DNA from: Alphaproteobacteria bacterium
GTDB taxonomy: Bacteria > Pseudomonadota > Alphaproteobacteria > Rhizobiales > Rhizobiaceae
Length of the DNA stretch: 64,000 nucleotides
Assembly (NCBI GenBank): GCA_024742485.1
Contig: JANSYK010000001.1
Coordinates: forward strand, 1,550,001-1,614,000
Reading direction: 5' to 3'
The position numbers and the translations under genes are program-made. Below, in pieces: positions 15,417 through 46,297 of this stretch (within the stretch, counting starts at the first letter, position 1; every line of letters begins with the position of its first letter). The notes beneath the pieces are model-generated. The model did no database searches and had not been told where the DNA came from. It saw only the letters and a list, made by a program, of their open reading frames with translations.

Positions 15417-16382
15417 ATGACCATCCGACATGCCCGCGTCCTGATCATCGGTTCAGGACCCGCCGGTTACACAGCCGCGATTTATGCCGCGCGTGCGCTG
15501 CTCGAGCCCGTCCTCATTGCCGGAATGGAACAGGGCGGCCAGCTGATGATTACCACTGAGGTCGAAAACTATCCGGGTTATGCCGAGACCGTTCAGGGTC
15601 CCTGGATGATGGAACAGATGCTCAAGCAGTCTCAAAATGTCGGGGCCGACATTGTCAATGATCTGGTCACCGAGGTCGATTTGAATGTCCGCCCGTTCCG
15701 GCTCAAAACCGATTCCGGTCAGGAGTACAGCTGTGACACGCTGGTAATCGCCACCGGTGCGCAGGCCAAGTGGTTGGGCATCGAATCCGAACAGACGTTC
15801 ATGGGCTTCGGCGTTTCGGCCTGTGCGACTTGTGATGGATTTTTCTATCGCGGCAAGAATGTCGTCGTTGTCGGAGGCGGCAACACGGCCGTCGAAGAAG
15901 CGCTCTACCTGTCCAATCTGGCCGCCAAGGTCACCCTTGTGCATCGGCGCGACGAACTGCGTGCCGAAAAGATCCTGCAGCAAAGGCTCTTCAACAAGGA
16001 CAATGTCGAGATCATCTGGGACAGCCAGTTGGAAGAAATCACCGGCGAGACCACGAAACCGCCGTCGGTAACCGGTGTACGCCTCAAAAACGTCAAGACC
16101 GGCGACATCACGGAACACCAGACCCATGGGGTGTTCATCGCGATTGGCCACGCCCCATCCGTCTCGCTGTTTGAGGGCAAGGTCAAACAGAAGCCCAACG
16201 GCTATCTGTGGACGGAGGCAGACTCGACCGCAACCGACATTCCAGGAGTGTTTGCCGCCGGCGACGTGACGGACGACATCTACCGCCAGGCAGTGACCGC
16301 CGCCGGCATGGGATGCATGGCAGCCCTTGAGGCGGAAAAGTATCTGGCCGAACACGAGACGATTGCCGAAGCCGCGGAATAG
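15417..16382 (+). CDS. trxB: Thioredoxin-disulfide reductase
   Basis: A 321-residue FAD/NADPH enzyme that reduces thioredoxin. The FAD-binding GSGPAGYTAAIYAARA is at the N-terminus, the redox-active disulfide is Cys136-Ala-Thr-Cys139, the NADPH-binding VVVVGGGNTAVEEALYLS follows, and the second FAD motif GVFAAGDVTDDIYRQAVTAA is near the C-terminus. Length and motifs match low-molecular-weight TrxB. It is directly followed (44 bp) by the LsrB-type regulator, the rhizobial arrangement linking thiol redox and oxidative-stress control. Confidence 0.98.
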   Translation: MTIRHARVLIIGSGPAGYTAAIYAARALLEPVLIAGMEQGGQLMITTEVENYPGYAETVQGPWMMEQMLKQSQNVGADIVNDLVTEVDLNVRPFRLKTDSGQEYSCDTLVIATGAQAKWLGIESEQTFMGFGVSACATCDGFFYRGKNVVVVGGGNTAVEEALYLSNLAAKVTLVHRRDELRAEKILQQRLFNKDNVEIIWDSQLEEITGETTKPPSVTGVRLKNVKTGDITEHQTHGVFIAIGHAPSVSLFEGKVKQKPNGYLWTEADSTATDIPGVFAAGDVTDDIYRQAVTAAGMGCMAALEAEKYLAEHETIAEAAE

Positions 16383-16426: not shown

Positions 16427-17323
16427 ATGCCGCTCGACTGGGACAAGTTGCGAATATTTCATGCTGCGGCCGAGGCTGGGTCCTTCACCCACGCGGCGGA
16501 GGAACTGCATCTTTCCCAATCGGCGATCAGTCGCCAGGTCAGCGCCCTGGAACAGGATATCGGCGTTCCGTTGTTTCATCGTCATGCCCGCGGCCTGATC
16601 CTGACGGAACAGGGAGAACTGCTCTATCACACCGCCCACGACGTTCTGCTGCAGCTTGAAGCGGCCCGGGTCCGGCTGACGGAAACGACCGATAAGCCGA
16701 CCGGCAGGCTGCGCGTGACGACCACGGTCGGGCTCGGCTCCGGATGGTTGACCGAGCGCATGCAGGAGTTCACCGAACTCTATCCGGACATCAAGATTCA
16801 ACTGCTCCTCGACAATGAAGAACTTGATGTCACCATGCGTCATGCCGATTGCGCCATCCGGCTGCGCCAGCCGCAACAGCCCGATCTCATCCAGCGCAAG
16901 CTCTTCACGGTGCATATGCATGTCTACGCCGCGCCGGCCTATCTGAACCGATACGGCAAGCCTGAAAAGGTCAGCGATTTCGACAAGCACAAGATCGTCA
17001 CCTTCGGCGAACCGGCACCGAGCTACCTGCTGGACGTCAACTGGCTGGAGGTCGCGGGCCGGCCGGCCGCAGATCCGCGTACGCCGCAGTTGCAGATCAA
17101 CAATATCATCGCGATCAAGAAAGCGGCGCAGCTTGGTGTCGGCATCGCCATCCTTCCCGACTACGTGGTCGAGCACGATGCCGGGCTTGTTCAGCTTGAC
17201 ATTGGTGCCGATGTGCCGTCGTTCGACTGTTTCTTCTGCTACGCGGAAGAAATGCGCGGATCGGCAAAACTCAAGGCCTTCCGCGATTTCCTTATCTCCA
17301 AGGCACGGAACTGGAAATTCTGA
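16427..17323 (+). CDS. lsrB: LysR-family regulator, LsrB/VtlR type
   Basis: A 298-residue LTTR. The winged HTH covers residues 1-60 (LDWDKLRIFHAAAEAGSFTHAAEELHLSQSAISRQVSALEQ split by the usual turn), then the linker and a periplasmic-binding-protein-like effector domain to residue 295. Position directly behind trxB and the high resemblance of the N-terminus identify it as the LsrB (Sinorhizobium, Agrobacterium) / VtlR (Brucella) regulator, which in those genera affects LPS, oxidative stress, virulence or symbiosis and activates small RNAs. The specific name depends on synteny. The preceding ATG has GGGAGA upstream. Confidence 0.85.
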   Translation: MPLDWDKLRIFHAAAEAGSFTHAAEELHLSQSAISRQVSALEQDIGVPLFHRHARGLILTEQGELLYHTAHDVLLQLEAARVRLTETTDKPTGRLRVTTTVGLGSGWLTERMQEFTELYPDIKIQLLLDNEELDVTMRHADCAIRLRQPQQPDLIQRKLFTVHMHVYAAPAYLNRYGKPEKVSDFDKHKIVTFGEPAPSYLLDVNWLEVAGRPAADPRTPQLQINNIIAIKKAAQLGVGIAILPDYVVEHDAGLVQLDIGADVPSFDCFFCYAEEMRGSAKLKAFRDFLISKARNWKF

Positions 17324-17407
17324 ACGAACGGCCCGCGCCGTCAAACCCGAATGGCAGTCGGACTCGATGGTATGCAGGCCGGGCTCGAAGTCCGTCCGGC
17401 TCGATTG

Positions 17408-17716
17408 TCACATGTCCAGCACTTCACTGACTTCCACGGAACCGGCATCCAGGATCGGGCAACCCTTGGCCATCGCGACCGCCGCCTCGGCATTTTCCGC
17501 ATTGACGACAGAATACCCCGAGAGCGGATTGGCGCCGCCGCCATCGGAGACACCGGCAGCTGTTACGGTTCTGGATTCACCAACCGGTCCGCCACCATCC
17601 ACGACCGCATCGCCCAGTTCTTCAAACCATGCACCCCAGGCAGCCATGACCTTGGCACCCTCTTCCGGACTTTCCGGCATTTTTCCACCATGATAGGCAA
17701 AAACGAATTTCGGCAT
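17408..17716 (-). CDS. YCII/DGPF-domain protein
   Basis: The 102-residue protein has the ferredoxin-like YCII fold: MPKFVFAYHGG at the start, a central GAWFEELGDAVVDGG, NPLSGYSVVNAENAEAAVAM, and the C-terminal GSVEVSEVLDM. Members are often stress-linked proteins, partnered with ArsR or SRPBCC genes, or anti-sigma-like; the reaction is unknown. ATG 17716 follows GGAGGGAG. Its promoter overlaps a near-perfect 30 bp inverted repeat, so it is probably under tight repression by a regulator that is not encoded next to it. Confidence 0.82.
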   Translation of the reverse strand: MPKFVFAYHGGKMPESPEEGAKVMAAWGAWFEELGDAVVDGGGPVGESRTVTAAGVSDGGGANPLSGYSVVNAENAEAAVAMAKGCPILDAGSVEVSEVLDM

Positions 17717-17746
17717 GACAACTCCCTCCAAATTCAGGCATCAAAT

Positions 17747-17776
17747 TAACAAACATGTTATTTAACATATTTGTTA
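17747..17776. promoter_or_regulatory. 30 bp operator-like inverted repeat before the YCII gene
   Basis: Two 14 bp arms, TAACAAACATGTTA (17747-17760) and TAACATATTTGTTA (17763-17776), are separated by TT and complementary at 13 of 14 positions. It lies 31 bp upstream of the YCII start and covers the -10 region of the predicted promoter, so binding of a dimeric repressor (ArsR-, TetR- or MarR-like) would block transcription. Confidence 0.65.
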
Positions 17777-17793
17777 TTTTATGGATCTGTCAA
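17764..17793 (-). promoter_or_regulatory. Predicted promoter of the YCII gene
   Basis: On the minus strand TTGACA (17793-17788) and TATGTT (17769-17764) are 18 bp apart. The -10 element is inside the right arm of the inverted repeat. Confidence 0.6.
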
Positions 17794-17845
17794 TATTTGG
17801 ACAAACATGTCTCGGCAGGGCTTTTCCGATCAGTGAAAACTGGCT

Positions 17846-19006
17846 TTAGAACCGCCAAACCGTTTGCGGACCGTCAAATCCCTTCAGATCGACTTCACCG
17901 GCGCTGCTGCACCGTTCCGGAACAAGCTTCGCCAGTTCGGATGACAGAACATTGTCGCACCTCAATTGGGAAGCCGCCGACAACAGGCGCGCCGTATAGT
18001 TGACGGGCGGCCCGATCGCCGTGAAGTCAAGGCGGTTCGCGCCACCGATATTGCCGTAGTGAAACGTTCCGCAGTGCAGGGCAGCCCGAAACTCCACATC
18101 ATAGTGTCCATCGTCGGCCAGCGCCGCCCGGCCTTCATGAACGGCATCGATGGCAGAAGCGGCAATCTCGGCAATCTGATCTTCGCTCTCATAGGGAAAT
18201 ATGGCGAAAAATCCGTCGCCCATGAATTTGAGAATCTCACCGCCGCGCTGGTTGACCGGCGGCACCAGCCGATCGAAGGTATCGTTCAGCAGATCAACAA
18301 CTTCACTGCCTTGCTTGCTGTTCGACATGGCGGTGAAATCCTTCACATCGACAAACAGGATCACCGCGCTGATGCCCTCGCCGTCCCCGCGATGAACCTT
18401 GCCCTGGAGGATTTGCGCACCGCTGTTGCGCCCGACATAGGTCGACAACAGCACGGCTGAATTCAGCCAGAGCATGTAGGTCTCCGTCAGCCGGGCCAGC
18501 GGAGCATTGATCTGTTGCAGGATATCGAGATCGCGCTCGCTGAACCCGCCCTTCTGTGCCGACGACCAGGTACAGACATGGGTTTCTCCGGAGGTGAAGA
18601 TCAGCGGTTGAGCGAGATAATCGGTAAAACCCTGCTCCCTCAGCTCGCCAATAATAATGTAATCATCGGGGCAATCGTCCCGCTCGAGATGCCGTCGCAA
18701 TGGTTTCTGCTCCTCGATCACACGCGGCAGCGGATTGGAGGTGTAAATCTCCTGGGAAAACGTTCCCATCGGTGCCTGCGCGATGTCGATCCCTTCCCCC
18801 TTTATCCAGCGGAAGCGTTGTCCCAGAAGGTTCGGATGCAGGGTGTAGATGAACAACATGAAGCGATCGACGGCAACATCGAGATCGACGAGCCGATCGC
18901 AAATACCAGTGACGATCTGGCGGGCATCCGAACTCGGACGGGCACCGTCGACCATCCATTCGACGAGGTCCCTGCTGTCCGTCATATGTTCTTGCCTGCG
19001 CTGCAT
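17846..19006 (-). CDS. Class III adenylate/guanylate cyclase with N-terminal sensory region
   Basis: A 386-residue soluble protein. Residues 1-190 look like a GAF-like input region without membrane segments; residues 205-375 form a class III cyclase domain. The first metal aspartate is in ILFVDVKDFT, the second in LKFMGDGFFAIF together with the base-selecting lysine, and the adenine-type aspartate and transition-state Asn/Arg are in RLDFTAIGPPVNYTARLL, so the site looks intact and favours ATP. The ATG at 19006 has GGGAG and AGGGG upstream. It is a single gene downstream of the sulfatase, so its signal cannot be read from context. Confidence 0.85.
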   Translation of the reverse strand: MQRRQEHMTDSRDLVEWMVDGARPSSDARQIVTGICDRLVDLDVAVDRFMLFIYTLHPNLLGQRFRWIKGEGIDIAQAPMGTFSQEIYTSNPLPRVIEEQKPLRRHLERDDCPDDYIIIGELREQGFTDYLAQPLIFTSGETHVCTWSSAQKGGFSERDLDILQQINAPLARLTETYMLWLNSAVLLSTYVGRNSGAQILQGKVHRGDGEGISAVILFVDVKDFTAMSNSKQGSEVVDLLNDTFDRLVPPVNQRGGEILKFMGDGFFAIFPYESEDQIAEIAASAIDAVHEGRAALADDGHYDVEFRAALHCGTFHYGNIGGANRLDFTAIGPPVNYTARLLSAASQLRCDNVLSSELAKLVPERCSSAGEVDLKGFDGPQTVWRF

Positions 19007-19114
19007 GGCCCCTGCTCCCCGGCTGTGACAACCCGTTGATCACAATACTACCGGGACGGCGTCACACAAAACATCGCAACCGCATTCCTCATCAACATTT
19101 GATGTTGGGGTGCC

Positions 19115-20491
19115 TCAGACGACCCAGGGGGCCGTCTGGTTCGTCGGCTCGGGACCGCCATCCCGGATGCCGGAATTGGCCGGCACCTCATAGTGCCGGA
19201 AATGAGCGTCGAGTTGTTCCGTGAGTCGCTGGACCAGACCTGCAAATTCCATCTCCTGCGCCAGATTCAGCGTCTCCCGGGGATCCTCCTTCAGGTCAAA
19301 AAGGAGCGTTTGACCGGAATGATGGTGACGCAGCAACTTGTATCGCGTTGTTCGAATCATGCGGGCAGATCCGTATTCGCAAAACTGTGTCGTTCTCCAG
19401 GATTCCTCAAGCGGATCATTTGTCAGCATTGGAAGAAAACTGCGTCCCGCGTATCCCTTTTGTGGTTCGGGATCGGCACCGACACCGGAAAAAGCGGCAA
19501 GGGTCTGGAACAAATCCAGATGGTCAACAAACTCAATCCGGCGCTGGCCGGAAAACAGCTTTGTCGGATGATTGAAAATCATCGGAATCCGAATGCTCTC
19601 CTCCACCATATTGAGTGGCATCGTCCCGTTGCCCTTGCCCCAGATTCCATGATGGCCGCAGCACAAACCATGGTCAGACGTGTAGACGATCAAGGTGTCG
19701 TCGCGCACGGCAAGCGCTTCCAACTCATCGATCAGCCGGCCGACGGCCTCATCGAGACTGGAGACTGCGGCGTAATACTGCATCAGCGCTTCACGCGATT
19801 CCGTGCGTGAAATGAGATCACGCGATTCCAGGTTTTGATGACCGAAGGGGTAGGCCGTGTCGGGTGGGATATCGCCGAAATGGCAATCGCGATATTGGTC
19901 CACAAGGCGTTGCGGGTGATCGGCCCAGGGACTGTGGGTTGCCGTATGCCCGACAAACAGAAAGAACGGCCGCTCAGCATCACGGCCGCGCAGAAAGTCA
20001 ATCGCGGCGTCCGTAATCACCTGTGATTTGTACCCTTCCAATTCGACGACATCGCCGTCCCGGCTGTAGCGGTACGCTCCCCTGGCCTCGATCGGATAGT
20101 CACCGCTCAGCGCAAACCATCGGTCAAATCCCGGATGGGGCTCCAGGTCATTTCCCAGATGCCATTTGCCTGACATGCCCACTTGATATCCGGCGTCCTG
20201 CAGCAGCTCCGGCAGCGTTAGTTCGGCGTCGAGCCAGCGTCGTTGTTCAAACCCCTGACCGCTGGCGATATAGTCGTGCAACCCGTGTTGAGACGCCAGC
20301 CGTCCTGTCTGAAAGCAAGCCCGTGCGGGCGAGCACACGGGCGTCGGTGTAAAGGCGTTCTCCATGACGACACCGGTCCGGGCCAGATGATCGAGCGTGG
20401 GTGTCCGCAACTCCGAATTGCCATAGGCCGGCAGCGCCCATTGGCCGTGATCATCATTGAAGATCACGACGATATTTTTGCGAGATGGCAT
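19115..20491 (-). CDS. Type I sulfatase (formylglycine-dependent)
   Basis: A 458-residue alkaline-phosphatase-fold sulfatase. The metal-binding start NIVVIFNDDHGQ and the formylglycine motif CSPAR (Cys53) in TPTPVCSPARACFQTGRLAS are intact, as are the downstream GKWHLG lysine/histidine motif and IVYTSDHG metal ligands. No signal peptide is seen, so it probably acts in the cytoplasm on an imported sulfate ester. I place the start at ATG 20491 (14 bp after the permease stop); an upstream start at 20545 would overlap the permease by 41 bp. It is last in the iclR-ABC transporter-sulfatase run. The maturase that oxidises the cysteine is not in the window. Confidence 0.9.
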   Translation of the reverse strand: MPSRKNIVVIFNDDHGQWALPAYGNSELRTPTLDHLARTGVVMENAFTPTPVCSPARACFQTGRLASQHGLHDYIASGQGFEQRRWLDAELTLPELLQDAGYQVGMSGKWHLGNDLEPHPGFDRWFALSGDYPIEARGAYRYSRDGDVVELEGYKSQVITDAAIDFLRGRDAERPFFLFVGHTATHSPWADHPQRLVDQYRDCHFGDIPPDTAYPFGHQNLESRDLISRTESREALMQYYAAVSSLDEAVGRLIDELEALAVRDDTLIVYTSDHGLCCGHHGIWGKGNGTMPLNMVEESIRIPMIFNHPTKLFSGQRRIEFVDHLDLFQTLAAFSGVGADPEPQKGYAGRSFLPMLTNDPLEESWRTTQFCEYGSARMIRTTRYKLLRHHHSGQTLLFDLKEDPRETLNLAQEMEFAGLVQRLTEQLDAHFRHYEVPANSGIRDGGPEPTNQTAPWVV

Positions 20492-20504
20492 GTTTCCAGT
20501 TGAC

Positions 20505-21320
20505 CTAGTAATTTGCTGCGGACCGCACGAAACGCCCGATAACATGTTTACCGAACATTTTCCAAGAATAGTCAGTCAACAGGCCAAGAAAGCCGAGAAG
20601 AAAAATCCCGACAAACATCCAATCGATCTTGAAATAGAGTTTGGAGGTCCAGATCAAGTAACCAAGCCCGGACTCGGCCGCAAGCATCTCAACCGCAACG
20701 ATTACAAGAAAGGACGAAGCCAGCGCCAGGCGCATTCCGACATAGATGGACGGCATGGCGGCCGGGATCGTCACCCGCCAGAATATCTGCCACATCGAAG
20801 CACCAAACGTGCGTGCGGCCAGCCGCTTGTTCTGATGGATTGTCACCACACCCGTGGCGGTGTTGACCATAACAATGAAGGCGGTCGCATACATCACCAG
20901 CAGGATTTTCGACAGTTCACCTACACCGAACCAAACGATGAAGAGCGTCACAAGGGCAATCGCCGGAATGAACCGCAGGAAATGGATATAGGGATCGATG
21001 ATCCGCTTGGCATTCAGGAAACTGCCGACCAGCAATCCGATGGGGATCGCCACAAGGCTGCCGAGGATCCAGCCACCGAGGATGCGGACAAGACTGGCGG
21101 ATATGTGCGTCAGCAACAGATCCTGCTGATGCAGTTCCACGGCACCGAGAAAGATGGCCGATACCGGTGGCAGAAAAAACGGATCGATGAAAAGCCGCGC
21201 GCCGACTTCCCAGATCAGCAGACCGATAAGCACCGATAACGGCGATATCAGATTCGCCGCCAACACCCATTTTGTCGCCCCGCCCACTTTCGCCGGCTTG
21301 GATTGATCGATCACTGCCAT
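20505..21320 (-). CDS. ABC transporter permease, SsuC/TauC type
   Basis: A 271-residue inner-membrane permease with about six hydrophobic segments (for example SPLSVLIGLLIWEVGARLF, ILGGWILGSLVAIPIGLLVG, WMFVGIFLLGFLGLLTDY). The EAA-like cytoplasmic loop coupling to the ATPase is visible in LAARTFGASMWQIFWRVTIPAAMPSIYVGMRLALA. This is the family that imports taurine, sulfonates and related anions. Its ATG overlaps the end of the ATPase gene by 10 bp, and the sulfatase follows at 14 bp, so the three are one transcription unit. Confidence 0.92.
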   Translation of the reverse strand: MAVIDQSKPAKVGGATKWVLAANLISPLSVLIGLLIWEVGARLFIDPFFLPPVSAIFLGAVELHQQDLLLTHISASLVRILGGWILGSLVAIPIGLLVGSFLNAKRIIDPYIHFLRFIPAIALVTLFIVWFGVGELSKILLVMYATAFIVMVNTATGVVTIHQNKRLAARTFGASMWQIFWRVTIPAAMPSIYVGMRLALASSFLVIVAVEMLAAESGLGYLIWTSKLYFKIDWMFVGIFLLGFLGLLTDYSWKMFGKHVIGRFVRSAANY

Positions 21321-22084
21321 ACCTTGCTGACCTCTTCTTCAATGTCAGCCGAAATGCGCTCAAGCAGGTCAATGTAAAGCGGATCGCTCTGCTTGCGCGG
21401 ATAGTCCATCGGCACGTCATAGCTGTGCTTGATATTGGCCGCCGGTCCAGCCGACATGAGGATGATGCGCTGCCCCAGATTCAGCGCTTCGCGAATGTCG
21501 TGGGTAACATAAATCGCGGTGCCGCCCACTTCTGTCCAGATCGAGACCATCTGGTTTTGCAGTATCTGTCGCGTTTGGGCGTCAAGCGACGCAAAGGGCT
21601 CATCCATCAACATGATTGAGGGGCGCATGGCCAGCATGCGTGCGATCTGTACACGCTGTTTCATGCCGCCGGACAACGCATCGGGAAATTTGTCGCCATG
21701 GTCAAGCAGATTGACCATTTTCAGTGCCGCATCGCGTCGTTCAATCCGTTCCTGGCGCGGTACCCCGTCGATCTGAAGACCGAATTCAACATTCTCGCGA
21801 ACGGTCAGCCACTCGTAAAGCGCGCTCTCCAGATCCTGAAACACCATCCCCCTGTCCTTGCCGGGACCTGAAATCGGTTTCCCGTCAATCTGCAATCGTC
21901 CTTCACTCGCGTGATCAAAACCCGCGACAAGTCGCAACAGGGTCGACTTGCCGCAACCGCTCGGACCGAGAAGGATGAGAAACTCGCCCTCGGCGATGGT
22001 CAGATCGATGTTGCGAAGGATCATTGGTGACGACCGTCCCGCCGTTTCATAGGCGAACCCGACCGACTCGAGCGAAATTGTCAT
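21311..22084 (-). CDS. ABC transporter ATP-binding protein, SsuB/TauB type
   Basis: A 257-residue ATPase with Walker A GPSGCGKST near residue 40, Q-loop VFQDLE, signature LSGGMKQRVQIAR, Walker B IMLMDEPFASLD and switch histidine VTHDIREA, all intact. It powers the adjacent permease. Start ATG 22084. A stem-loop between the binding-protein gene and this one (22131-22154) may lower its expression relative to the binding protein. Confidence 0.95.
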   Translation of the reverse strand: MTISLESVGFAYETAGRSSPMILRNIDLTIAEGEFLILLGPSGCGKSTLLRLVAGFDHASEGRLQIDGKPISGPGKDRGMVFQDLESALYEWLTVRENVEFGLQIDGVPRQERIERRDAALKMVNLLDHGDKFPDALSGGMKQRVQIARMLAMRPSIMLMDEPFASLDAQTRQILQNQMVSIWTEVGGTAIYVTHDIREALNLGQRIILMSAGPAANIKHSYDVPMDYPRKQSDPLYIDLLERISADIEEEVSKVWQ

Positions 22085-22130
22085 AGTATCACCCCACCGC
22101 TGACGGATTGTCCGTGGATAGTCGGCGGCC

Positions 22131-22154
22131 GCACCGGCAGGTTGAAACCGGTGC
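22131..22154 (-). other. Intercistronic stem-loop after the TauA-like gene
   Basis: GCACCGG and CCGGTGC form a 7 bp stem with a 10-nt loop, 18 nt after the stop of the binding-protein gene. No T-tract follows, so an mRNA-stabilising or partial-terminator role, common after binding-protein genes, is more likely than full termination. Confidence 0.45.
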
Positions 22155-22171
22155 GACCAGCATCAAAATTG

Positions 22172-23164
22172 TCAGTCGAGACTGTCGACCGTCGGCGCAT
22201 TCGGTGCGGCTTCCTTCAGCACTCCGAGATCGAATTGGGCCGCGTAATCATAGGGCGGATCAATGACACCCTGCGCGATCAGGAATTCATATTTGTCCTT
22301 CAGCGAGTCCATTGCGGTTTTTTCAAAGCTCAGCCCGTAATTCTGGCCCATGATCACCGGTTTGACCTTTGTGGCGTCCCCGGCAATTCCCTTGGCAACG
22401 ATTGCGGCAGCTTCCTCGACGTCGGTTTTCACCACAGCGCCAGCCTTGTCGAGAGCCCGCAAGGTCCCGACGACCGCATCGCGATTATTGGCCAGAAAAT
22501 CCTTGGAGACCACCAGCAACGCTGTGGTTTTCTGATTGACGATGCTGTCATCGGCTTCAAACCGGTAACGATCATCATCGGCGATCTGTTCGACACCCTG
22601 CCCCCAGATCCATGCTGCATCCACGCGGCCAGCTTTCATCGCTCCGATGATTTCGAACAGGCTTCCCAGCCCGACAAGTTCGACATCCTCGTCGGGATTG
22701 ACTCCATTGTCGCGCAGATGGGTGCGGGTCACAAATTCCTGAGCCGTTCCTGTTGCGACCGCAATCTTCTTGCCCTTGAGATCTTCCGGGCCCTTGTAAT
22801 CCTGTGTCACATACAATTTGTGCCATCCCGGATTCGGAGTCCCGATCAACGTTGGCACCGCCAGCTTGTCGGAACTCAGGCGCGTCAGAAGCGGCATATC
22901 GATGATCACACCGAAATCAGCCTGTCCAGCCAACACCGCGTCAACCGTGTCGACGCCATAGGAAAAGGTCAGCATGACCGGCTCGATATTTTCCTCGGCC
23001 AGATAGCCCTTCGCTTCCGCCACCCGAATAAGCGTTCCCAGCACAAAGCCATCAACTGCGTATCGCACCTTGGTATCAGCCGCCACGACGGATGTGGCCG
23101 TTCCTGCGGCGATGCCCGCGCCAACAAGCAATCCCATCAAGCGTCGAAAAGAAAACCGTGACAT
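22172..23164 (-). CDS. ABC transporter substrate-binding protein, SsuA/TauA (NMT1-like)
   Basis: A 330-residue periplasmic protein. The signal peptide MSRFSFRRLMGLLVGAGIAA plus GTATSVVAA ends at an Ala-x-Ala cleavage site near residue 29. The mature part follows the NMT1/SsuA-like pattern: KVRYAVDGFVLGTLIRVAEA, a DFGVIIDMPLL segment, and LKGKKIAVATGTAQEFVTR in the hinge. With the sulfatases on both sides, a sulfate ester or sulfonate is the likely ligand, but the sequence alone does not fix it. The start has GGGAG upstream and lies 31 bp after the IclR gene. Confidence 0.9.
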   Translation of the reverse strand: MSRFSFRRLMGLLVGAGIAAGTATSVVAADTKVRYAVDGFVLGTLIRVAEAKGYLAEENIEPVMLTFSYGVDTVDAVLAGQADFGVIIDMPLLTRLSSDKLAVPTLIGTPNPGWHKLYVTQDYKGPEDLKGKKIAVATGTAQEFVTRTHLRDNGVNPDEDVELVGLGSLFEIIGAMKAGRVDAAWIWGQGVEQIADDDRYRFEADDSIVNQKTTALLVVSKDFLANNRDAVVGTLRALDKAGAVVKTDVEEAAAIVAKGIAGDATKVKPVIMGQNYGLSFEKTAMDSLKDKYEFLIAQGVIDPPYDYAAQFDLGVLKEAAPNAPTVDSLD

Positions 23165-23195
23165 TTCATTCTCCCGTTCCGTTGAGGTATAGATG

Positions 23196-23963
23196 TTATG
23201 GCAAATTCTGCCCCGCCAATCGCAGGGACAGATCCGCTCTGTTATTGAGGCGTCGTTCCGCCTCTTCGGCCGCTATGCGGACCGAATTCAGACAAGAATC
23301 TGTTTCGTCCGGATTCATGTTGATAGCCGCGATGGCAACCACACCCTTGACGGTGTGACCAACGCCCTGATGCACCGGCACGGCAATCCGTGTGACGGCG
23401 CCTTCGCGGCTGATATGATGCCCATCCCGCCTGATCGTCCGCAGGAGAGCGACAAACCCTTCGATATCGCCATCGCCGATTTGTTCTTCGAGCAGATAGC
23501 GGGCGATGTCAGGCTCCTGATAGGCCAGCAAGGTCAGCGCCATGCCGTTGTCGTGCAATTCGTAGTGCTTGAAATACAGCTCGATGAAATGAAACGAGGA
23601 CGGCATTTCGGTCTTGGTTGTCAGGACGAAGGAATCATTGGCAAAGCGTGCAAAACAGGCGGAATGCCCCGTGGCGATGGCCAGATCCTTGACCACCGGC
23701 TCGATGATCTCGTGCTCCGACCAGTGCCCGCTCAAATGGCGGGCCAATGTCATGGTGCGCGCACCGACAACGTAACGCCCCCGTTGCTCCGTTTCGATCC
23801 AGCCTTCGTTCAGCAGCATCTTCAAAAGACGCGACAGGCTTGCCGCCGAGACGCCAATCTCGATTTCAAGCTTGGAAAAGGACAAGCCTTCCGGCGCCCG
23901 GGACAGAGCATCGACGACGCTCAGCGCCCTGCGCCCCGCCAGCAGTTGATTTTCACCGACCAT
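23196..23963 (-). CDS. IclR-family transcriptional regulator
   Basis: A 255-residue protein with the IclR N-terminal winged HTH (AGRRALSVVDALSRAPEGLS, FSKLEIEIGVSAASLSRLLK) and the C-terminal effector domain (SACFARFANDSFVLTTKTE, AVTRIAVPVHQG, VKGVVAIAAINMNPDE). It is the promoter-proximal gene of the transporter operon and divergent from the second sulfatase, so it most likely controls both. A 34 bp dyad in the shared promoter is a candidate operator. Confidence 0.9.
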   Translation of the reverse strand: MVGENQLLAGRRALSVVDALSRAPEGLSFSKLEIEIGVSAASLSRLLKMLLNEGWIETEQRGRYVVGARTMTLARHLSGHWSEHEIIEPVVKDLAIATGHSACFARFANDSFVLTTKTEMPSSFHFIELYFKHYELHDNGMALTLLAYQEPDIARYLLEEQIGDGDIEGFVALLRTIRRDGHHISREGAVTRIAVPVHQGVGHTVKGVVAIAAINMNPDETDSCLNSVRIAAEEAERRLNNRADLSLRLAGQNLP

Positions 23964-24002
23964 TGATTAGTTTCATTACCAATAGTTACTTTCAATTATG
24001 GA

Positions 24003-24036
24003 AGTCTTGACTCGCCTCCTGGAGCTTGTCAAGTCT
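24003..24036. promoter_or_regulatory. Candidate operator in the iclR/sulfatase divergent promoter
   Basis: Arms AGTCTTGAC (24003-24011) and GTCAAGTCT (24028-24036) are complementary at 8 of 9 positions; the centre contains CTCC-T-GGAG (24016-24024), itself a dyad. The site lies 39 bp from the iclR start and 65 bp from the second sulfatase. Assignment to IclR is inference from position. Confidence 0.4.
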
Positions 24037-24101
24037 GTGCATAGTTCCCCTGCAGCACCGGAATCGATCGGTTCGGTCCATCAAAGGAAACCCAGCAAGC
24101 C

Positions 24102-25535
24102 ATGCGACCGAATATTTTGTGGATCTGCACCGATCAGCAACGCTTCGACACCCTCGGTTGCACGGGGAACCGGTTCGTCACAACGCCGAACATAGACGCA
24201 TTGGCCCGCGAATCGGCGCAATTCGAACATTGCTACGTGCAGAGCCCGATCTGCATGCCGAGCCGTGCGAGCTTCCTGACCGGTCGCTATCCTCGCACCA
24301 CCAGGCTTCGGCAAAACGGTCAAACCATCCCATCCGACGAGAAGCCAATCAGCAGGTTGCTTGCCGATGCAGGATATCATTGTGGGCTGGTTGGAAAGTT
24401 CCATCTCGCACCGGCCGACCCGGCGGTAAATGCCACCATAGAGGCGCGCATCGATGACGGTTACAGCGAGTTTTGCTGGGCCGGCGACCCACACGACAAT
24501 TGGGGCAATCACAGTGGCTACACAGCATTTCTTTCCGGCCATGGAAAGCAATTCGAGACCCGCCCGCATCCCGATTGCGCCTTTGTCGAAATCGGTATGC
24601 CTGAAGCTCTGCACGAGGCAAGCTGGTGTGCAAATCAGGCGATCGAATTCATCGAACGAAGGGCCGGCTCGGGCTCGCCCTGGATGTTCTCGCTGAACAT
24701 GTTCGCGCCGCACCATCCATTCAATCCGCCCGAACCGTATCTACAACCCTATCTCGATAGAATCGACGAGATTCCGCTGCCCGCCGCCCTCGATGACGAC
24801 CTTTCCGGCAAACCGGCCTATCAGGCCATCGACGCGGAAGGCGCCTATGGACGTACGATGCCCTATTGGCGTGGCATGTCTGACACGGATCACCGAATCG
24901 TGCGCGCGGCCTATTGGGCCATGTGCGACCTTGTCGACGTCAAAGTCGGCACAATCCTTGATGCTCTGACGCGCAGTGGCCAGCGTGACAACACGATCGT
25001 GATTTTCATGAGCGATCACGGTGAGATGCTGGGCGATCACGGCATTTATCTCAAAGGCCCCTATTTCTACGATCCTGCAATCCGGGTTCCGTTGATCATC
25101 AACTGGCCCGGCAGGATCGTGCCCAAACGCCATGCGGGTCTGACGGAGCTCGTCGATCTGGCGCCAACGCTTTTGGACGCAAGCGGTATCGATCCATATC
25201 CGGGTATGCAGGGACACTCCCTGTGGCCTGAACTGAATGGACAATCCCCACCCGAAGGCCGTGAGAGCGTCTATTGCGAATATTACAACGCGATGCCGTT
25301 TCACAGCGATCCAACGGCGCAGCTGACCATGCTGCGAACACAATCCCACAAGATTGTTGTCGATCATGCGAACGGGAACGGCGAGTTGTATGACCTGGAT
25401 GCCGATCCGCTCGAGACCATCAACCTCTGGCGGGATTCCACCGCATTGGCGGTGAAGGCCGAGATGCTGACGCAACTGACCCACCGGATGGCATTCACCG
25501 TCGATCCGCTGCCGCCGCGAATCTCAGAGTGGTAG
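24102..25535 (+). CDS. Type I sulfatase / phosphonate-monoester-hydrolase-like enzyme
   Basis: A 477-residue member of the sulfatase superfamily, distinct from the other sulfatase here. The metal site begins RPNILWICTDQQRFDTLGC; the formylglycine motif is CMPSR (Cys51) in QSPICMPSRASFLTGRYP; VGKFHLAP supplies the conserved Lys/His and VIFMSDHGEMLGDHG the distal metal ligands. No signal peptide is present. The C-x-P-S-R form also occurs in promiscuous phosphonate monoester hydrolases, so an arylsulfatase or phosphodiester activity cannot be separated by sequence. It diverges from iclR and faces a non-coding interval. Confidence 0.88.
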   Translation: MRPNILWICTDQQRFDTLGCTGNRFVTTPNIDALARESAQFEHCYVQSPICMPSRASFLTGRYPRTTRLRQNGQTIPSDEKPISRLLADAGYHCGLVGKFHLAPADPAVNATIEARIDDGYSEFCWAGDPHDNWGNHSGYTAFLSGHGKQFETRPHPDCAFVEIGMPEALHEASWCANQAIEFIERRAGSGSPWMFSLNMFAPHHPFNPPEPYLQPYLDRIDEIPLPAALDDDLSGKPAYQAIDAEGAYGRTMPYWRGMSDTDHRIVRAAYWAMCDLVDVKVGTILDALTRSGQRDNTIVIFMSDHGEMLGDHGIYLKGPYFYDPAIRVPLIINWPGRIVPKRHAGLTELVDLAPTLLDASGIDPYPGMQGHSLWPELNGQSPPEGRESVYCEYYNAMPFHSDPTAQLTMLRTQSHKIVVDHANGNGELYDLDADPLETINLWRDSTALAVKAEMLTQLTHRMAFTVDPLPPRISEW

Positions 25536-25721
25536 ACGTCAAGCTGTTCGCACGATGTCGCAACGGATCGCGTTTTCTAGAATTCTGGCTCTAATCCAAT
25601 ATGCTCCGGAACGACAAAACCGAAGCATCAGCAAGAGCTTGAGAGAAGCTATGCGCTGGGCGCATAGCTGCCATGCGCCCGTTACCATTGCAAATTCTGC
25701 CCCGAATAAACATATCTGGTT
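25536..25721. other. Non-coding interval upstream of the candidate small RNA
   Basis: No gene is visible. A TTGCAA at 25688-25693 and ATATCT at 25712-25717 (18 bp spacing) form a weak candidate promoter for the small RNA. The main structure is the pair of competing hairpins at 25647-25680. Confidence 0.4.
25647..25680. promoter_or_regulatory. Overlapping dyads upstream of the candidate small RNA
   Basis: AGCTATGCGC (25647-25656) pairs perfectly with GCGCATAGCT (25660-25669), a 10 bp stem with a TGG loop. The same central bases also pair another way: GGGCGCAT (25658-25665) with ATGCGCCC (25673-25680). As DNA, the second dyad is centred about 50 bp upstream of the expected RNA start, a typical activator position for a LysR-type regulator. 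As RNA the two stems are mutually exclusive. Confidence 0.45.
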
Positions 25722-25848
25722 GAGCTGACAACGCGATGGACACCTCCTCCCGGTCTCATCCTTGTCAGCTGTGTTCCCCTCTGGAGGTTTTGATTATAAA
25801 CCTTCCAATTCATCGAGCCGGAGAGAAATCTCGCGGCTCGTTTTTTTT
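25722..25848 (+). ncRNA. Candidate trans-acting small RNA with CCUCCUCCC anti-Shine-Dalgarno loop
   Basis: Three consecutive stem-loops are visible. Hairpin 1: AGCTGACAA (25723-25731) pairs with TTGTCAGCT (25762-25770), then GATG/CATC and GAC/GTC stack inside it and present the 11-nt loop ACCTCCTCCCG, with CCTCCTCCC at 25743-25751. Hairpin 2: 25782-25790 with 25798-25807, one bulged base, loop TGATTAT. Hairpin 3 is a terminator. A CCUCCUCCC loop is the hallmark of the alphaproteobacterial cuckoo/alpha-r14-type RNAs, which normally carry two such loops; only one is seen here. Its loop could also pair with GGAGGT in hairpin 2. The 5' end is estimated. Confidence 0.7.
25814..25848 (+). terminator. 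Strong rho-independent terminator of the small RNA
   Basis: CGAGCCG-GAGA, a GAAA tetraloop, TCTC, one bulged G and CGGCTCG form an 11 bp stem, followed by eight T (25841-25848). It is oriented on the plus strand, and no protein gene ends just before it. Confidence 0.9.
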
Positions 25849-25973: not shown

Positions 25974-26945
25974 CTAGGTAAACAGCCTCTCACCCTCGAT
26001 CCCGTCATAGAGATGCGCGACCTGCTCGCCATAGCCATTGTACAACAATGTTGGCACGCGCTCGCCCGTGTGAAGGATCCGCTCTTCCGCCTGGCTCCAG
26101 CGACGATGTGGCACTTCAGGATTCACATTTGCCCAAAATCCGTATTCCTGTGGAAGTATTTCCTCCCAGAAACTGACCGGGCGCGTGTCGGTGAAACTGA
26201 TCCGCTTGATCGACTTGATGGATTTGAATCCATATTTCCACGGCAGCGCCAGACGAATGGGTGCGCCGAACTGATTGTCGAGCACCTTGCCATACGCGCC
26301 GGTCACCAGGAAGGCAAGGTCATTTCCGGCCTCCTCCATCGTGACGCCCTCGACATAGGGCCAGGGGTACCAGGACTGCTTTTGTCCCGCTGCAACGGAT
26401 GGATCCATGAACGTCTCGAAGCGAACATATTTGGCTGAGGACAGGGGTTTCGCTATGGCCACAAGGTCAGCAAGGCGAAAACCGGTCCACGGAATGGTCA
26501 TCGACCAGGCTTCGACACAGCGATGCCGGTAAAGCCGCTCCTCAAGGGCAACGCGCCCCAGAAGGTCGTCAAATCCGATGGTGAAAGGTTCTTCGACCAG
26601 TCCATCGACCGTGATGTCCCAGGGGCTGGTCTTCAAGGCCTGCGCAGCCCGCCAGATCTGCTTGTGCGAACCGAACTCATAGAAATTGTTGTATTTCGAG
26701 TTGACCTCCCACGGCGTCAATTCGCGATCGATCGTGTGAGCCTCGTTGCGTTTTGCCGGATAGAGATCCTTGGTCGCATCATTGGCCGCGCTGGCAATTC
26801 CGGGCTTGAGCGCCACGGCCGCTGCCAATCCGAGACCGGCAAACCCCAGGTTCTTGATCAATGTCCGCCGGTTGATAAACGCGTCCTGCGGCGTCGCGAG
26901 CGCTTCGTCGATATGCCAGGATGGTTTTTGAATGATATGTGCCAA
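25974..26945 (-). CDS. msrP: Protein-methionine-sulfoxide reductase catalytic subunit MsrP (YedY)
   Basis: A 323-residue periplasmic molybdoenzyme that repairs oxidised methionines in envelope proteins. A twin-arginine signal is visible (INRRTLIKNLGFAGLGLAAA). The molybdopterin-ligating cysteine lies in YRHRCVEAWSMTIPWTGF, and the family blocks ELTPWEVNSKYNNFYEFG and WPYVEGVTMEEA are intact. The usual partner, the haem membrane protein MsrQ, is not next to it within this window; downstream lies the small-RNA interval. Start at ATG 26945; a more upstream frame has no homology. Confidence 0.95.
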   Translation of the reverse strand: MAHIIQKPSWHIDEALATPQDAFINRRTLIKNLGFAGLGLAAAVALKPGIASAANDATKDLYPAKRNEAHTIDRELTPWEVNSKYNNFYEFGSHKQIWRAAQALKTSPWDITVDGLVEEPFTIGFDDLLGRVALEERLYRHRCVEAWSMTIPWTGFRLADLVAIAKPLSSAKYVRFETFMDPSVAAGQKQSWYPWPYVEGVTMEEAGNDLAFLVTGAYGKVLDNQFGAPIRLALPWKYGFKSIKSIKRISFTDTRPVSFWEEILPQEYGFWANVNPEVPHRRWSQAEERILHTGERVPTLLYNGYGEQVAHLYDGIEGERLFT

Positions 26946-27033: not shown

Positions 27034-29190
<2,157 letters not shown>

Positions 29191-38346: not shown

Positions 38347-38946
38347 CTAGATATCGCTTGATGCAACAATCGCGTCTGCGATATCGGCAATGCTGGTTTT
38401 CGTGTTCTGTGATTTATCTCGAAGGCGCCGATAGGCTTCTTCCTCGGAGATATTTCTGGTTTCCGACAGGATTGCCACTGCCTTCTCGATTTTCCGGCGG
38501 GCTTTCAACGTATCATCCAAGGATCGAATGCGTTGTGTCAGCCGGCGTTCGTGCCTGGCTATGCCGAGCGCCGTGGTCAACACGGCAAGGATGCCGAATA
38601 TACGGATCGGCTTGGTCAGAACGCCATGCACGTTCAAGCGTTCAATCTCTGCCAGAATCTCCGGCGTCTCAAACGAGATGATCGCAATTCGCGCGATGGC
38701 CGCACTATTGACCATCCATGACAGTGAGCGTCGGTCGCTGATTTTCGTCAGTACAAACAGCACAACATCGACATGGTCCGGCAGACTATCCGGAGCTGGC
38801 CAGACACTCTCAACCTGACAACCGATCCTCTTCAAATGGGCCAGAAACATCTGTCGTTCGGGATCGTCCGGATGGATCACCAGAACACGCATTCGACGCA
38901 ATCGGCGCAAGAGGTTTTCGTTTCGAAGTGGAGCGGTTTCCGTCAT
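38347..38946 (-). CDS. amiR: AmiR-type ANTAR transcription antiterminator
   Basis: A 199-residue protein. Residues 18-130 form a receiver-like domain (RVLVIHPDDPERQMFLAHLK) lacking a clear phospho-acceptor aspartate (VVLFVLTKIS), as in AmiR. A coiled coil leads to the ANTAR RNA-binding domain at about 138-196: ARRKIEKAVAILSETRNISE and EEAYRRLRDKSQNT. AmiR binds hairpins in the leader mRNA and prevents termination when released by AmiC. It overlaps the AmiC-type gene as ATGA, so both are translated together. Its target is probably the leader of this same operon. Confidence 0.9.
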   Translation of the reverse strand: MTETAPLRNENLLRRLRRMRVLVIHPDDPERQMFLAHLKRIGCQVESVWPAPDSLPDHVDVVLFVLTKISDRRSLSWMVNSAAIARIAIISFETPEILAEIERLNVHGVLTKPIRIFGILAVLTTALGIARHERRLTQRIRSLDDTLKARRKIEKAVAILSETRNISEEEAYRRLRDKSQNTKTSIADIADAIVASSDI

Positions 38947-40106
38947 ACGGTCAACTGATCACTGATCGATCGGTCATAGGATACCAGATAGGGATCGGGT
39001 CCCACGATAGCGGGGCTTTTCCAGACAATGTCGAAAGCCCCATCCTGTCTGGATTTTCCGACAAGCGGACGCATGGTGAAATGGTTTGTCTCGATATCGA
39101 TAAACAAATCACCGGCTGGAGACTTGAACACCGCCCCGGACAGGGCACTCAGTATCTCATCGGTTCCCGCACTGCCGGCCAACCGCACGGCATCGGCAAA
39201 AATGTGCACAAGAGAATAGCCGACTTCACTGTAGACACCGGGCATGATGTCTGTTCCATACCTTCCAGCGAAGGCATCGACAAAATCCTGGTTGCGTGAC
39301 GACTGTACGGAGCCAAAATAGGGAGATACGGACAGATGACCACCGCGAACTTTCGGTTCCATCTTCGCCAATTCGGATTCGGTGGTCGTCAGTGAAGCGA
39401 TGGGAACATCACCACTGAACTGGTTTATTTGCGAATAGGCGGTATAGAGGGTGATGCTGTCTTCGCCGACAACCGTGGACAGGATCACGTCCGCATTCTG
39501 ATCGGCAATCTGCTCAAGGACTGACCGCATTTGGCGACCATCAGCACCAAAAGGCAGGTAGACCTCAGAAACAATCTTTCCATCGCTGCTCGACAGAAAT
39601 TCGGTCACAATCCGGTTGATCTCGCGTGCATAAAGCGTGTCGGACCCGATCAACGCCACGTTTCGCCCGAGTGTGCTGTAAACATATTGCAGCAGCGGCA
39701 GGATCATCTGATTGGGAACAGCTCCGCCGTAGATGACATTCGGAGAGTATTCGAAACCTTCATAGACAGACGGGTAGAACAAAACGCCATCATATCGTTC
39801 AATGATCGGAAGAACCGCCTTTCGGCTTGTCGACAGGCAGCAACCAAAAATGGTGTTGACCTTGTGCTTCAAAAGCAGCTCAAGCGCCATCTCTGCATAG
39901 CGGTGGTCATCCCCACCCGGATCGAGAATGACCGGCTCCAGCAGGTTACCATCGATTCCGCCGCTTTCATTGATCTCGTCACAGGCCAACAAGATGCCCT
40001 GAAGGTGAGCATTCTCCGTTACGGCCATGGTTCCCGACTGGGAAAAGAGCACACCGATTTTTATTGGCTCGTTCTGCAAGTCCACCTCATCTTCCACCGA
40101 TATCAT
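38943..40106 (-). CDS. amiC: AmiC-type amide sensor (periplasmic-binding-protein fold, no signal peptide)
   Basis: A 387-residue Peripla_BP_5/6 protein without a signal peptide, so cytoplasmic like AmiC. PIKIGVLFSQSGTMAVTENA, GCCLSTSRKAVLPIIERYDG, LFYPSVYEGFEYSPNVIY and the hinge VGEDSITLYTAYSQ resemble the amide-sensing AmiC and the related UrtA group. In Pseudomonas AmiC sequesters AmiR and releases it on binding an amide; adjacency with amiR here supports the same role. The start overlaps the amidase gene by 20 bp. Confidence 0.88.
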   Translation of the reverse strand: MISVEDEVDLQNEPIKIGVLFSQSGTMAVTENAHLQGILLACDEINESGGIDGNLLEPVILDPGGDDHRYAEMALELLLKHKVNTIFGCCLSTSRKAVLPIIERYDGVLFYPSVYEGFEYSPNVIYGGAVPNQMILPLLQYVYSTLGRNVALIGSDTLYAREINRIVTEFLSSSDGKIVSEVYLPFGADGRQMRSVLEQIADQNADVILSTVVGEDSITLYTAYSQINQFSGDVPIASLTTTESELAKMEPKVRGGHLSVSPYFGSVQSSRNQDFVDAFAGRYGTDIMPGVYSEVGYSLVHIFADAVRLAGSAGTDEILSALSGAVFKSPAGDLFIDIETNHFTMRPLVGKSRQDGAFDIVWKSPAIVGPDPYLVSYDRSISDQLTV

Positions 40107-45014: not shown

Positions 45015-46223
45015 CTATTCGTTTTCAGGGGTAAAATGCTCAGCCGTATCAGGGCTGGCAATCAGATCGCATTTTTCATTTTCATAGGTCGGCGCTGAAC
45101 CCGGATAGGTCTGTACGATCCTGAAACCATGATTGGCGTCACCCTCGGCAATGTAGATGTCCTGACGCAGATGGTGCGATCCGGGTTCCAGTGTGACATT
45201 GCCATTTGGTGCGTTGAATGTGAGGCCGCTTTCAAGCGCTGCAATGACCGCGTCCGGGTCCGTTGAACCGGCTTTGTTTGCGGCAGCAGCCCAGAGGTGT
45301 ACGGCGTTCCACACATCCACGGCTCCAGCCACGATCGGCGTGTCGTTTCCGTATTTCGCCTGCCACAACTCGATGAACTCGGCATTCGCCGGGCTGTCCA
45401 CCGATGGAAAGTAGCCCATGCTTGCTATCAGCCCTTCGCCGGCTGCCGGCGACACGACAACCTGCTGGTTTCCAGATCCGTAATTGGTGGACACAACGCC
45501 AATGTCCTCTTTGAGCCCCGCCGCCGCGAACTGTTCAAGGAATCCCGTCTGGTTAGCGCCGACTGGCAGGGCAACAACGAAGTCAGGTTTTGCCGCCTGA
45601 ATCTTCTGAATGGTCGGTGCATAGTCCGTTACCGACAAGGCGAGGTAATCTTCACCGACGACTTCCGCACCGTTTTGCGCTGCATATTCATGGATCCAGT
45701 GTCCAGAAATCGTGCCGAAATTGTAGTCCGGCGCCATGATGTATATGCGCTTGCCATAGTTTTCGACCGCCCATTTCATCAGCACTGACAATTGCTGTGA
45801 TGCCGACGAGCCGGTGACAAATGTCTGCTTGTCACAGGCGCCGCCCTCATACAGCGATGAATAGAAATAAGGGATATTTGCCTTTCGGAAGATCGGACGA
45901 ATGGCTTCCCGCGACGAACTGGTAAGGCCGGCGAACATCGCCGCTATTCCATCGCGAAGAACCGCCGTATTGGCGTATTGAGTATATTTGGACAGTTCGG
46001 ACTGTGCATCGTAACCAATAACGGCAACCGGTTCACCGTTCACACCACCGGCAGCATTGATGCGCTCGACCGCAAGGTTCAGAGCATTGTTTTGCTGAAT
46101 GCCATAAATGTTGAGGCCGCCTGTGAGATCGAATATGGCGCCTATTTTGGTCTGTGCATGTGAGATCGCGCTTGGCATTGTGACGGACAACGCCACACCG
46201 AGGGCTGCAATGGCTATTTTCAT
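45015..46223 (-). CDS. Periplasmic substrate-binding protein (urea/short-chain amide type, HAAT family)
   Basis: A 402-residue Peripla_BP protein with signal peptide MKIAIAALGVALSVTMPSAI and cleavage after SHA near residue 23. The mature part starts KIGAIFDLTGGLNIYGIQQN and contains LNLAVERINAAGGVNGEPV and the ligand cleft AGLTSSSREAIRPIFRK, as in UrtA and amide-binding proteins. GGGAGG lies before the ATG. It is first in an eight-gene operon ending in amiR. Confidence 0.92.
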   Translation of the reverse strand: MKIAIAALGVALSVTMPSAISHAQTKIGAIFDLTGGLNIYGIQQNNALNLAVERINAAGGVNGEPVAVIGYDAQSELSKYTQYANTAVLRDGIAAMFAGLTSSSREAIRPIFRKANIPYFYSSLYEGGACDKQTFVTGSSASQQLSVLMKWAVENYGKRIYIMAPDYNFGTISGHWIHEYAAQNGAEVVGEDYLALSVTDYAPTIQKIQAAKPDFVVALPVGANQTGFLEQFAAAGLKEDIGVVSTNYGSGNQQVVVSPAAGEGLIASMGYFPSVDSPANAEFIELWQAKYGNDTPIVAGAVDVWNAVHLWAAAANKAGSTDPDAVIAALESGLTFNAPNGNVTLEPGSHHLRQDIYIAEGDANHGFRIVQTYPGSAPTYENEKCDLIASPDTAEHFTPENE

Positions 46224-46297
46224 TTGAGGTATTCCTCCCGTTGGAAAACAGACTGAACACCGTCATCAATGTTTGGAAAAGGAGTGCTTCAAATACA

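Follow-up and report, generated by a model that had tools for sequence, protein, structure and literature searches.

The window, by which we mean the whole 64-kb stretch of DNA analysed here (C154:1550001-1614000), carries between a sulfatase gene and msrP a predicted plus-strand RNA of about 126 nt including its U tail, which extends from approximately 25723 to 25848. Its first element is hairpin 1 (SL1, 25723-25770), whose outer stem joins AGCTGACAA (25723-25731) to TTGTCAGCT (25762-25770) and continues inward in GATG/CATC and GAC/GTC, thereby presenting loop 1, ACCTCCTCCCG (25742-25752). This loop contains the motif CUCCUCCC (aSD1, 25744-25751), while a second motif, UUCCCCUC (aSD2, 25774-25781), is located between hairpin 1 and hairpin 2 (SL2, 25782-25807), the latter with GGAGGT at 25783-25788 in its 5' arm. 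The RNA ends in a Rho-independent terminator (25814-25848) composed of a stem with a GAAA loop (25814-25840) and eight T (25841-25848). An earlier note made from this DNA had described these stems, the loop, the second hairpin, the terminator and the eight T, all of which are indeed found in the sequence. From the extent given there (25722-25848) the end can be retained, whereas the start has to be moved by one base to 25723, where the covariance-model match described below begins. The terminator serves no obvious protein gene, as had been noted, since the sulfatase stops at 25535 and msrP is convergent.

Scanning the window with the Rfam models yielded a single match at gathering score, namely to the ar15 (AbcR) family RF02345 at 25723-25844 (+), which covers model positions 1-112 of 112 and reaches 54.8 bits compared to a gathering score of 40. 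The stretch is thus very probably a real small RNA gene and a member of the AbcR/ar15 family. A score of 54.8 bits is modest, as the best members in other genera reach 127 bits, and the loop CUCCCGG differs from the ar15 consensus cCUcccagU. Both motifs are letter-for-letter those reported for AbcR1/2 of S. meliloti (PMC8844928). In keeping with ar15 RNAs, UCCUCCC lies in the loop of the 5' hairpin (compare PMC8844928, PMC3712013) and aSD2 between SL1 and SL2 (PMC8844928), and the three-hairpin fold ends in a Rho-independent terminator. In its own genome, where 150 out of 222 first-look candidates were scored, the RNA is the one ar15 match at E <=0.001. Searched with stricter filters, 34 of 61 related genomes contain a match at E <=0.001 (26 above the cut-off), and each of the eight same-genus genomes searched shows one. 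Among genomes sampled from the family, 227 of 297 show an ar15 match; none of the 14 control genomes does. The exact core pattern of the genus type was found in six records, i.e. Hoeflea poritis E7-10, Nitratireductor sp. XY-223 and four Rhizobiaceae metagenome or uncultured assemblies, so that an AbcR1-type RNA is now placed in a genus group with named neighbours. With one match per genome and no sibling copy, AbcR1 function could be easier to study in this genus, although a single ar15 match is also seen in many other genomes of the family.

The predicted minimum free energy of -48.1 kcal/mol lies well below that of shuffled sequences (mean -30.26, sd 3.43; z -5.2), none of 200 shuffles being as good. 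To evaluate the fold by covariation, nine sequences (eight of the genus and G026) were scored on the structure of the window RNA. Here, 95.0% of the cells are paired compared to a shuffled mean of 88.3, both-side changes occur in 12 of 36 pairs compared to 6.2, and the covariation score amounts to 0.316 compared to 0.174, in each case without a single one of 500 shuffles reaching the observed value. When the partners are slid out of register, pairing falls to 28-51%. One of the five measures runs in the opposite direction, with 19 further pair types against 22.4 in shuffled alignments. The both-side changes are found in 8 of 16 pairs of hairpin 1, in 3 of 11 pairs of the terminator and in 1 of 9 pairs of hairpin 2, where five pairs never vary. 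Covariation thus supports the three hairpins. The unpaired 5% of cells stem mainly from pair 9/42, which breaks in four of the nine sequences, and from pair 19/35, which breaks in three. As changes in paired bases are mostly compensated, the uncompensated changes which the earlier note had named as evidence against its RNA do not characterize this alignment. For the wider family we used an alignment (A1) of 36 of the 38 ar15 loci prepared, omitting L030, which is devoid of a normal hairpin 1, and L065, in which the RNA was missed at a contig start; the additional ar15 matches from the searches of related genomes and of the family stand outside it.

The genomic surroundings resemble those of known AbcR1 genes. 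The window contains trxB (15417-16382) followed by a LysR-type regulator gene of the lsrB/vtlR type (16427-17323, +), the likely activator of the RNA, which has LysR domains and 86% identity to its counterpart in G005. As no NCBIfam LysR model reaches its cut-off among the matches listed for this gene, the likely name lsrB/vtlR is based on synteny with trxB and AbcR together with the literature. On the other side of the RNA, msrP (25974-26945, -; NCBIfam 408.8 bits compared to a cut-off of 207) runs towards it, followed by an aminotransferase gene (27034-28356) that scores 556.6 with the aspartate transaminase model, i.e. below the cut-off of 617. The order trxB-lsrB-RNA-msrP is found in G002 and G004 and trxB-lsrB-RNA in G005; in these three genomes the RNA follows lsrB directly, within about 160-260 bases. 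According to BLAST, msrP adjoins the RNA in five of seven same-genus loci (G001-G004, G007), while ORF picking gave no msrP in G005 and G006, probably because an overlapping frame was kept instead. Elsewhere lsrB and the RNA are further apart, by 8.4 kb in the window and 8.3 kb in G003, by about 4.9 kb in both G006 and G007, and by about 14.9 kb in G001. Given the shared trxB-lsrB-AbcR-msrP block, the window RNA occupies the position of AbcR1, with further genes intervening between it and its likely regulator. In the interval 17324-25661, a cyclase-like gene and an IclR-like regulator were recognized by inspection; two genes resembling sulfatases and one for the binding protein of a sulfonate-type ABC transporter score below the NCBIfam cut-offs. 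With its variable length, the spot looks as if it were an insertion hotspot.

Upstream of the RNA, an exact match to the LsrB/VtlR box GCAT-N3-TG-N3-T (GCATAGCTGCCAT) is found at 25662-25674 (+), corresponding to -61 to -49 relative to the inferred start. It is followed by a probable sigma-70-type promoter, assigned by eye, with TTGCAA and CATATC separated by 17 bases (25688-25716, +). In S. meliloti, the PabcR1 promoter reads CTTGAC-N17-CTATAT and has an LsrB box at the same position (-61), for which LsrB dependence was shown (PMC8844928). Since the pattern is frequent by chance, with 16 occurrences in the window compared to 12.8 expected, the argument is carried by position and conservation: the box is present at -62 to -60 in 24 of the 36 ar15 loci, with all eight same-genus loci among them, and somewhere within the 100 bases upstream, in either orientation, in 28 of 36. 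It remains with the RNA in all eight genomes of the genus despite the variable distance to lsrB. The RNA thus combines an upstream LsrB/VtlR box with linkage to lsrB, the two features of the AbcR1 branch. As judged from published descriptions and the Rfam model, it shares with AbcR1 of Sinorhizobium meliloti the covariance family, the 8-nt aSD1 and aSD2 motifs, the three hairpins, the box at -61 to -49 and the lsrB linkage. It differs in its distance of 8.4 kb from lsrB and in being present as one copy, whereas S. meliloti possesses a tandem AbcR pair. In Agrobacterium tumefaciens, vtlR likewise follows trxB and is located next to the RNA, and the box has the same GCAT-N3-TG-N3-T form (PMC7486931), but abcR1 and abcR2 are arranged in tandem. 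Taken together, we are confident in identifying the element as abcR1, which makes it the AbcR/ar15 representative of its Rhizobiaceae source bacterium, with a mode of action deduced from its relatives, and its function is most likely like that of AbcR1. It adds one member to a known family and, as the novelty claimed for it does not hold, is of low surprise. The single loop copy, for example, had been put forward as a new point, whereas one aSD1 loop is normal in the published descriptions of S. meliloti AbcR1/2.

Two other assignments of the element were considered. By its loop, which carries CCUCCUCCC, the RNA had been filed under the ar14/cuckoo (NfeR1) family, RF02344, with which it has this anti-Shine-Dalgarno loop in common and for which an overlap in targets is predicted. 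RNAs of the ar14 family, however, are described as having three hairpins each with CCUCCUCCC, and their founding member NfeR1 as acting independently of Hfq (PMC10746234; see also PMC3927594), while the window RNA has one such loop. No ar14 match at gathering score is present in the 64-kb window, and between 25600 and 25950 the only other match at E <=1 scores lower and falls in the ar15 clan, of which ar14 is not a member. Of the covariance models that had been suggested as a check, AbcR/ar15 matches at the 54.8 bits given above and ar14 does not. Moreover, the genome has its own, separate ar14 matches at C154:458588, 459078 and 915773, with scores of 106.8, 66.0 and 54.9 bits; the first two exceed the cut-off of 58.8, and the best of them displays three CCTCCTCCC stretches. 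Because these "cuckoo" RNAs reside elsewhere in the genome, the window RNA is a different gene, and ar14 membership, which we rejected on the covariance model, the number of CCUCCUCCC hairpins and these separate copies, has next to no chance of being correct. The ar14/NfeR1-type matches lie at 1501-1624 in L068, 1501-1617 in L069 and 1501-1617 in L070, the latter below cut-off; two of them are separated by about 490 bases, and a tRNA precedes the first by about 310 bases. It is likewise very improbable, if slightly less so, that the sulfatase mRNA simply ends in this element as its 3' untranslated region and terminator. The sulfatase is encoded on the same strand and ends 187 bases upstream, but in G002, G004 and G005 the RNA comes directly after lsrB, the conserved box and the promoter-like sequence upstream stay together with the RNA, and both AbcR1 and AbcR2 of S. 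meliloti are reported to be independent transcription units (PMC3712013).

The earlier note had further proposed a conformational switch for the RNA, be it AbcR-like or cuckoo-like: loop 1 would be accessible in the open form, and in the closed form its ACCTCC would be paired to GGAGGT in hairpin 2. The two six-base segments are exactly complementary, as claimed. The arm is part of the ar15 consensus and no peculiarity of the window RNA, so that its presence in hairpin 2 stands and its novelty does not. Among the 36 ar15 sequences, a Watson-Crick run of at least five between arm and loop is found in 30, more often than such an uninterrupted run in hairpin 2 itself (19 of 36, with G-U pairs and bulges not counted), and the switch cells pair to 80.6% in register compared to 42-65% with the partners slid. 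With a predicted -8.7 for the six pairs and -10.5 when their context is included, the loop:arm duplex roughly equals hairpin 2 (-8.8) in strength. A nested closed fold nevertheless costs +15.3 kcal/mol, the largest probability of any switch pair is about 2e-11, and these pairs are absent from all eight growing prefixes of the RNA. The full six pairs can form in just 3 of the 36 sequences, and covariation is lacking, with a score of 0.136 compared to 0.143 for shuffled alignments and 80.6% compared to 80.7% of cells paired. In five relatives (L017, L021, L022, L028 and L066) the arm is changed such that the match to loop 1 drops to 3-4 while hairpin 2 keeps 5-7 contiguous pairs; two further arm variants, L026 and L063, keep five pairs with loop 1. 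As the family as a whole conserves both CCUCC in the loop and GGAGG in the arm, their match could arise without a switch. We thus rejected the nested closed state on energy and the switch on covariation, and regard the proposed alternation as quite unlikely.

A pseudoknotted closed form would lose hairpin 2 (-8.8) and gain a duplex that is roughly as stable, with any pseudoknot penalty still to be added. This leads to a related idea, to which we give barely more credence than to the switch, namely that AbcR RNAs carry, in the conserved GGAGG of hairpin 2, an internal mimic of a Shine-Dalgarno sequence which, by pseudoknotting with loop 1 or pairing with another AbcR molecule, might tune the anti-Shine-Dalgarno loop throughout the family, the six-pair version found here being the tightest. 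When the open-licence literature was searched loosely for a pseudoknot or self-masking in AbcR, AbcR1 was mentioned in none of the 20 papers listed, and neither "pseudoknot" nor "GGAGG" occurs in the main text of PMC8844928. In the 36 ar15 RNAs the columns of the hairpin-2 5' arm (UGGAGGU, 25782-25788) are 92-97% identical compared to 39-94% in the 3' arm, a difference to which misalignment of the 3' arm probably adds. The examined portions of the AbcR literature give no reason for the conservation of the 5' arm. Under the abcR1 assignment preferred here, hairpin 2, with its conserved 5' arm, would have a structural role rather than that of a lid on loop 1.

In S. meliloti, AbcR1/2 are reported to repress mRNAs via two independent motifs that pair at ribosome binding sites, and AbcR, unlike NfeR1, interacts with Hfq (PMC8844928). 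In the window RNA, the five bases CUCCC in loop 1 are predicted to be unpaired with a mean probability of 1.00, and the aSD2 columns of alignment A1 are invariant or nearly so. For Brucella, the 6-mers M1 CUCCCA and M2 GUUCCC have been described (PMC5461406); here, GUUCCC is present at 25773-25778, whereas M1 reads CUCCCG, the Brucella 6-mers being a description of that genus and not a family-wide rule. An Hfq gene is encoded in the genome. The U tail is present, and the A/U-rich single strand preceding the terminator, the Hfq site of the family, is short, comprising about six bases (ATTCAT, 25808-25813). By analogy, LsrB would activate transcription of the RNA, the transcript of about 126 nt with its terminal U tail would be bound by Hfq, and aSD1 in loop 1 as well as aSD2 between the hairpins would base-pair at the ribosome binding sites of messages that encode the binding proteins of transporters and other metabolic functions, which should block translation and favour mRNA decay. 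An LsrB-controlled, Hfq-assisted block of ribosome binding on transporter mRNAs is therefore the likely role that we infer, in line with the core proposal of the earlier note, a small RNA with a gene of its own that probably obstructs ribosome binding sites by means of an exposed anti-Shine-Dalgarno loop. This mechanism does not depart from those published for S. meliloti and A. tumefaciens.

We compared the leaders of 65 binding-protein genes with those of 60 control genes. The former comprise 65 of 69 fetched matches from three families (L096, L097, L098 and L128 were dropped as below cut-off or fragments), the latter the 30 top-scoring matches each of the SDR (out of 96) and LysR (out of 73) families, lsrB included. 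Start codons were picked by a simple score with group-specific length preferences, not by annotation. Binding-protein leaders show the higher complementarity to the aSD1 region (p 0.0003), with 1 of 60 shuffled oligos separating the groups equally well, while the aSD2 region performs no better than shuffled oligos, 20 of 60 being as good. Complementarity to the 16S tail is likewise higher in binding-protein leaders (p 1.4e-5), and since these statistics are confounded by Shine-Dalgarno strength, they do not single out targets. The pairing energy with aSD1 hardly differs between binding-protein leaders (-11.6) and SDR controls (-11.2); it is mostly the LysR genes that account for the aSD1 difference between leaders and controls. 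The aSD1 region has exact 7-base matches in 10 of 65 binding-protein and 5 of 60 control leaders, those to the aSD2 region in 2 of 65 and 2 of 60, respectively.

A match of this length to either motif region is found in 12 of the 65 binding-protein leaders, among them that of an ABC-transporter binding-protein gene in the window (45015-46223, -; Peripla_BP_6). At its ribosome binding site lies the predicted target site CGGGAGGA (46233-46240, -), which could form eight contiguous pairs with 25745-25752 of the RNA. The computed energy is -14.6 kcal/mol for the eight pairs and -17.2 for the best duplex, and opening the site in the isolated leader would cost about 8 kcal/mol. This gene is one of two urea-type ABC transporter binding-protein genes in the window (38943-40106 and 45015-46223, -), which score below the NCBIfam cut-offs of the urea models and lie about 5 kb apart.
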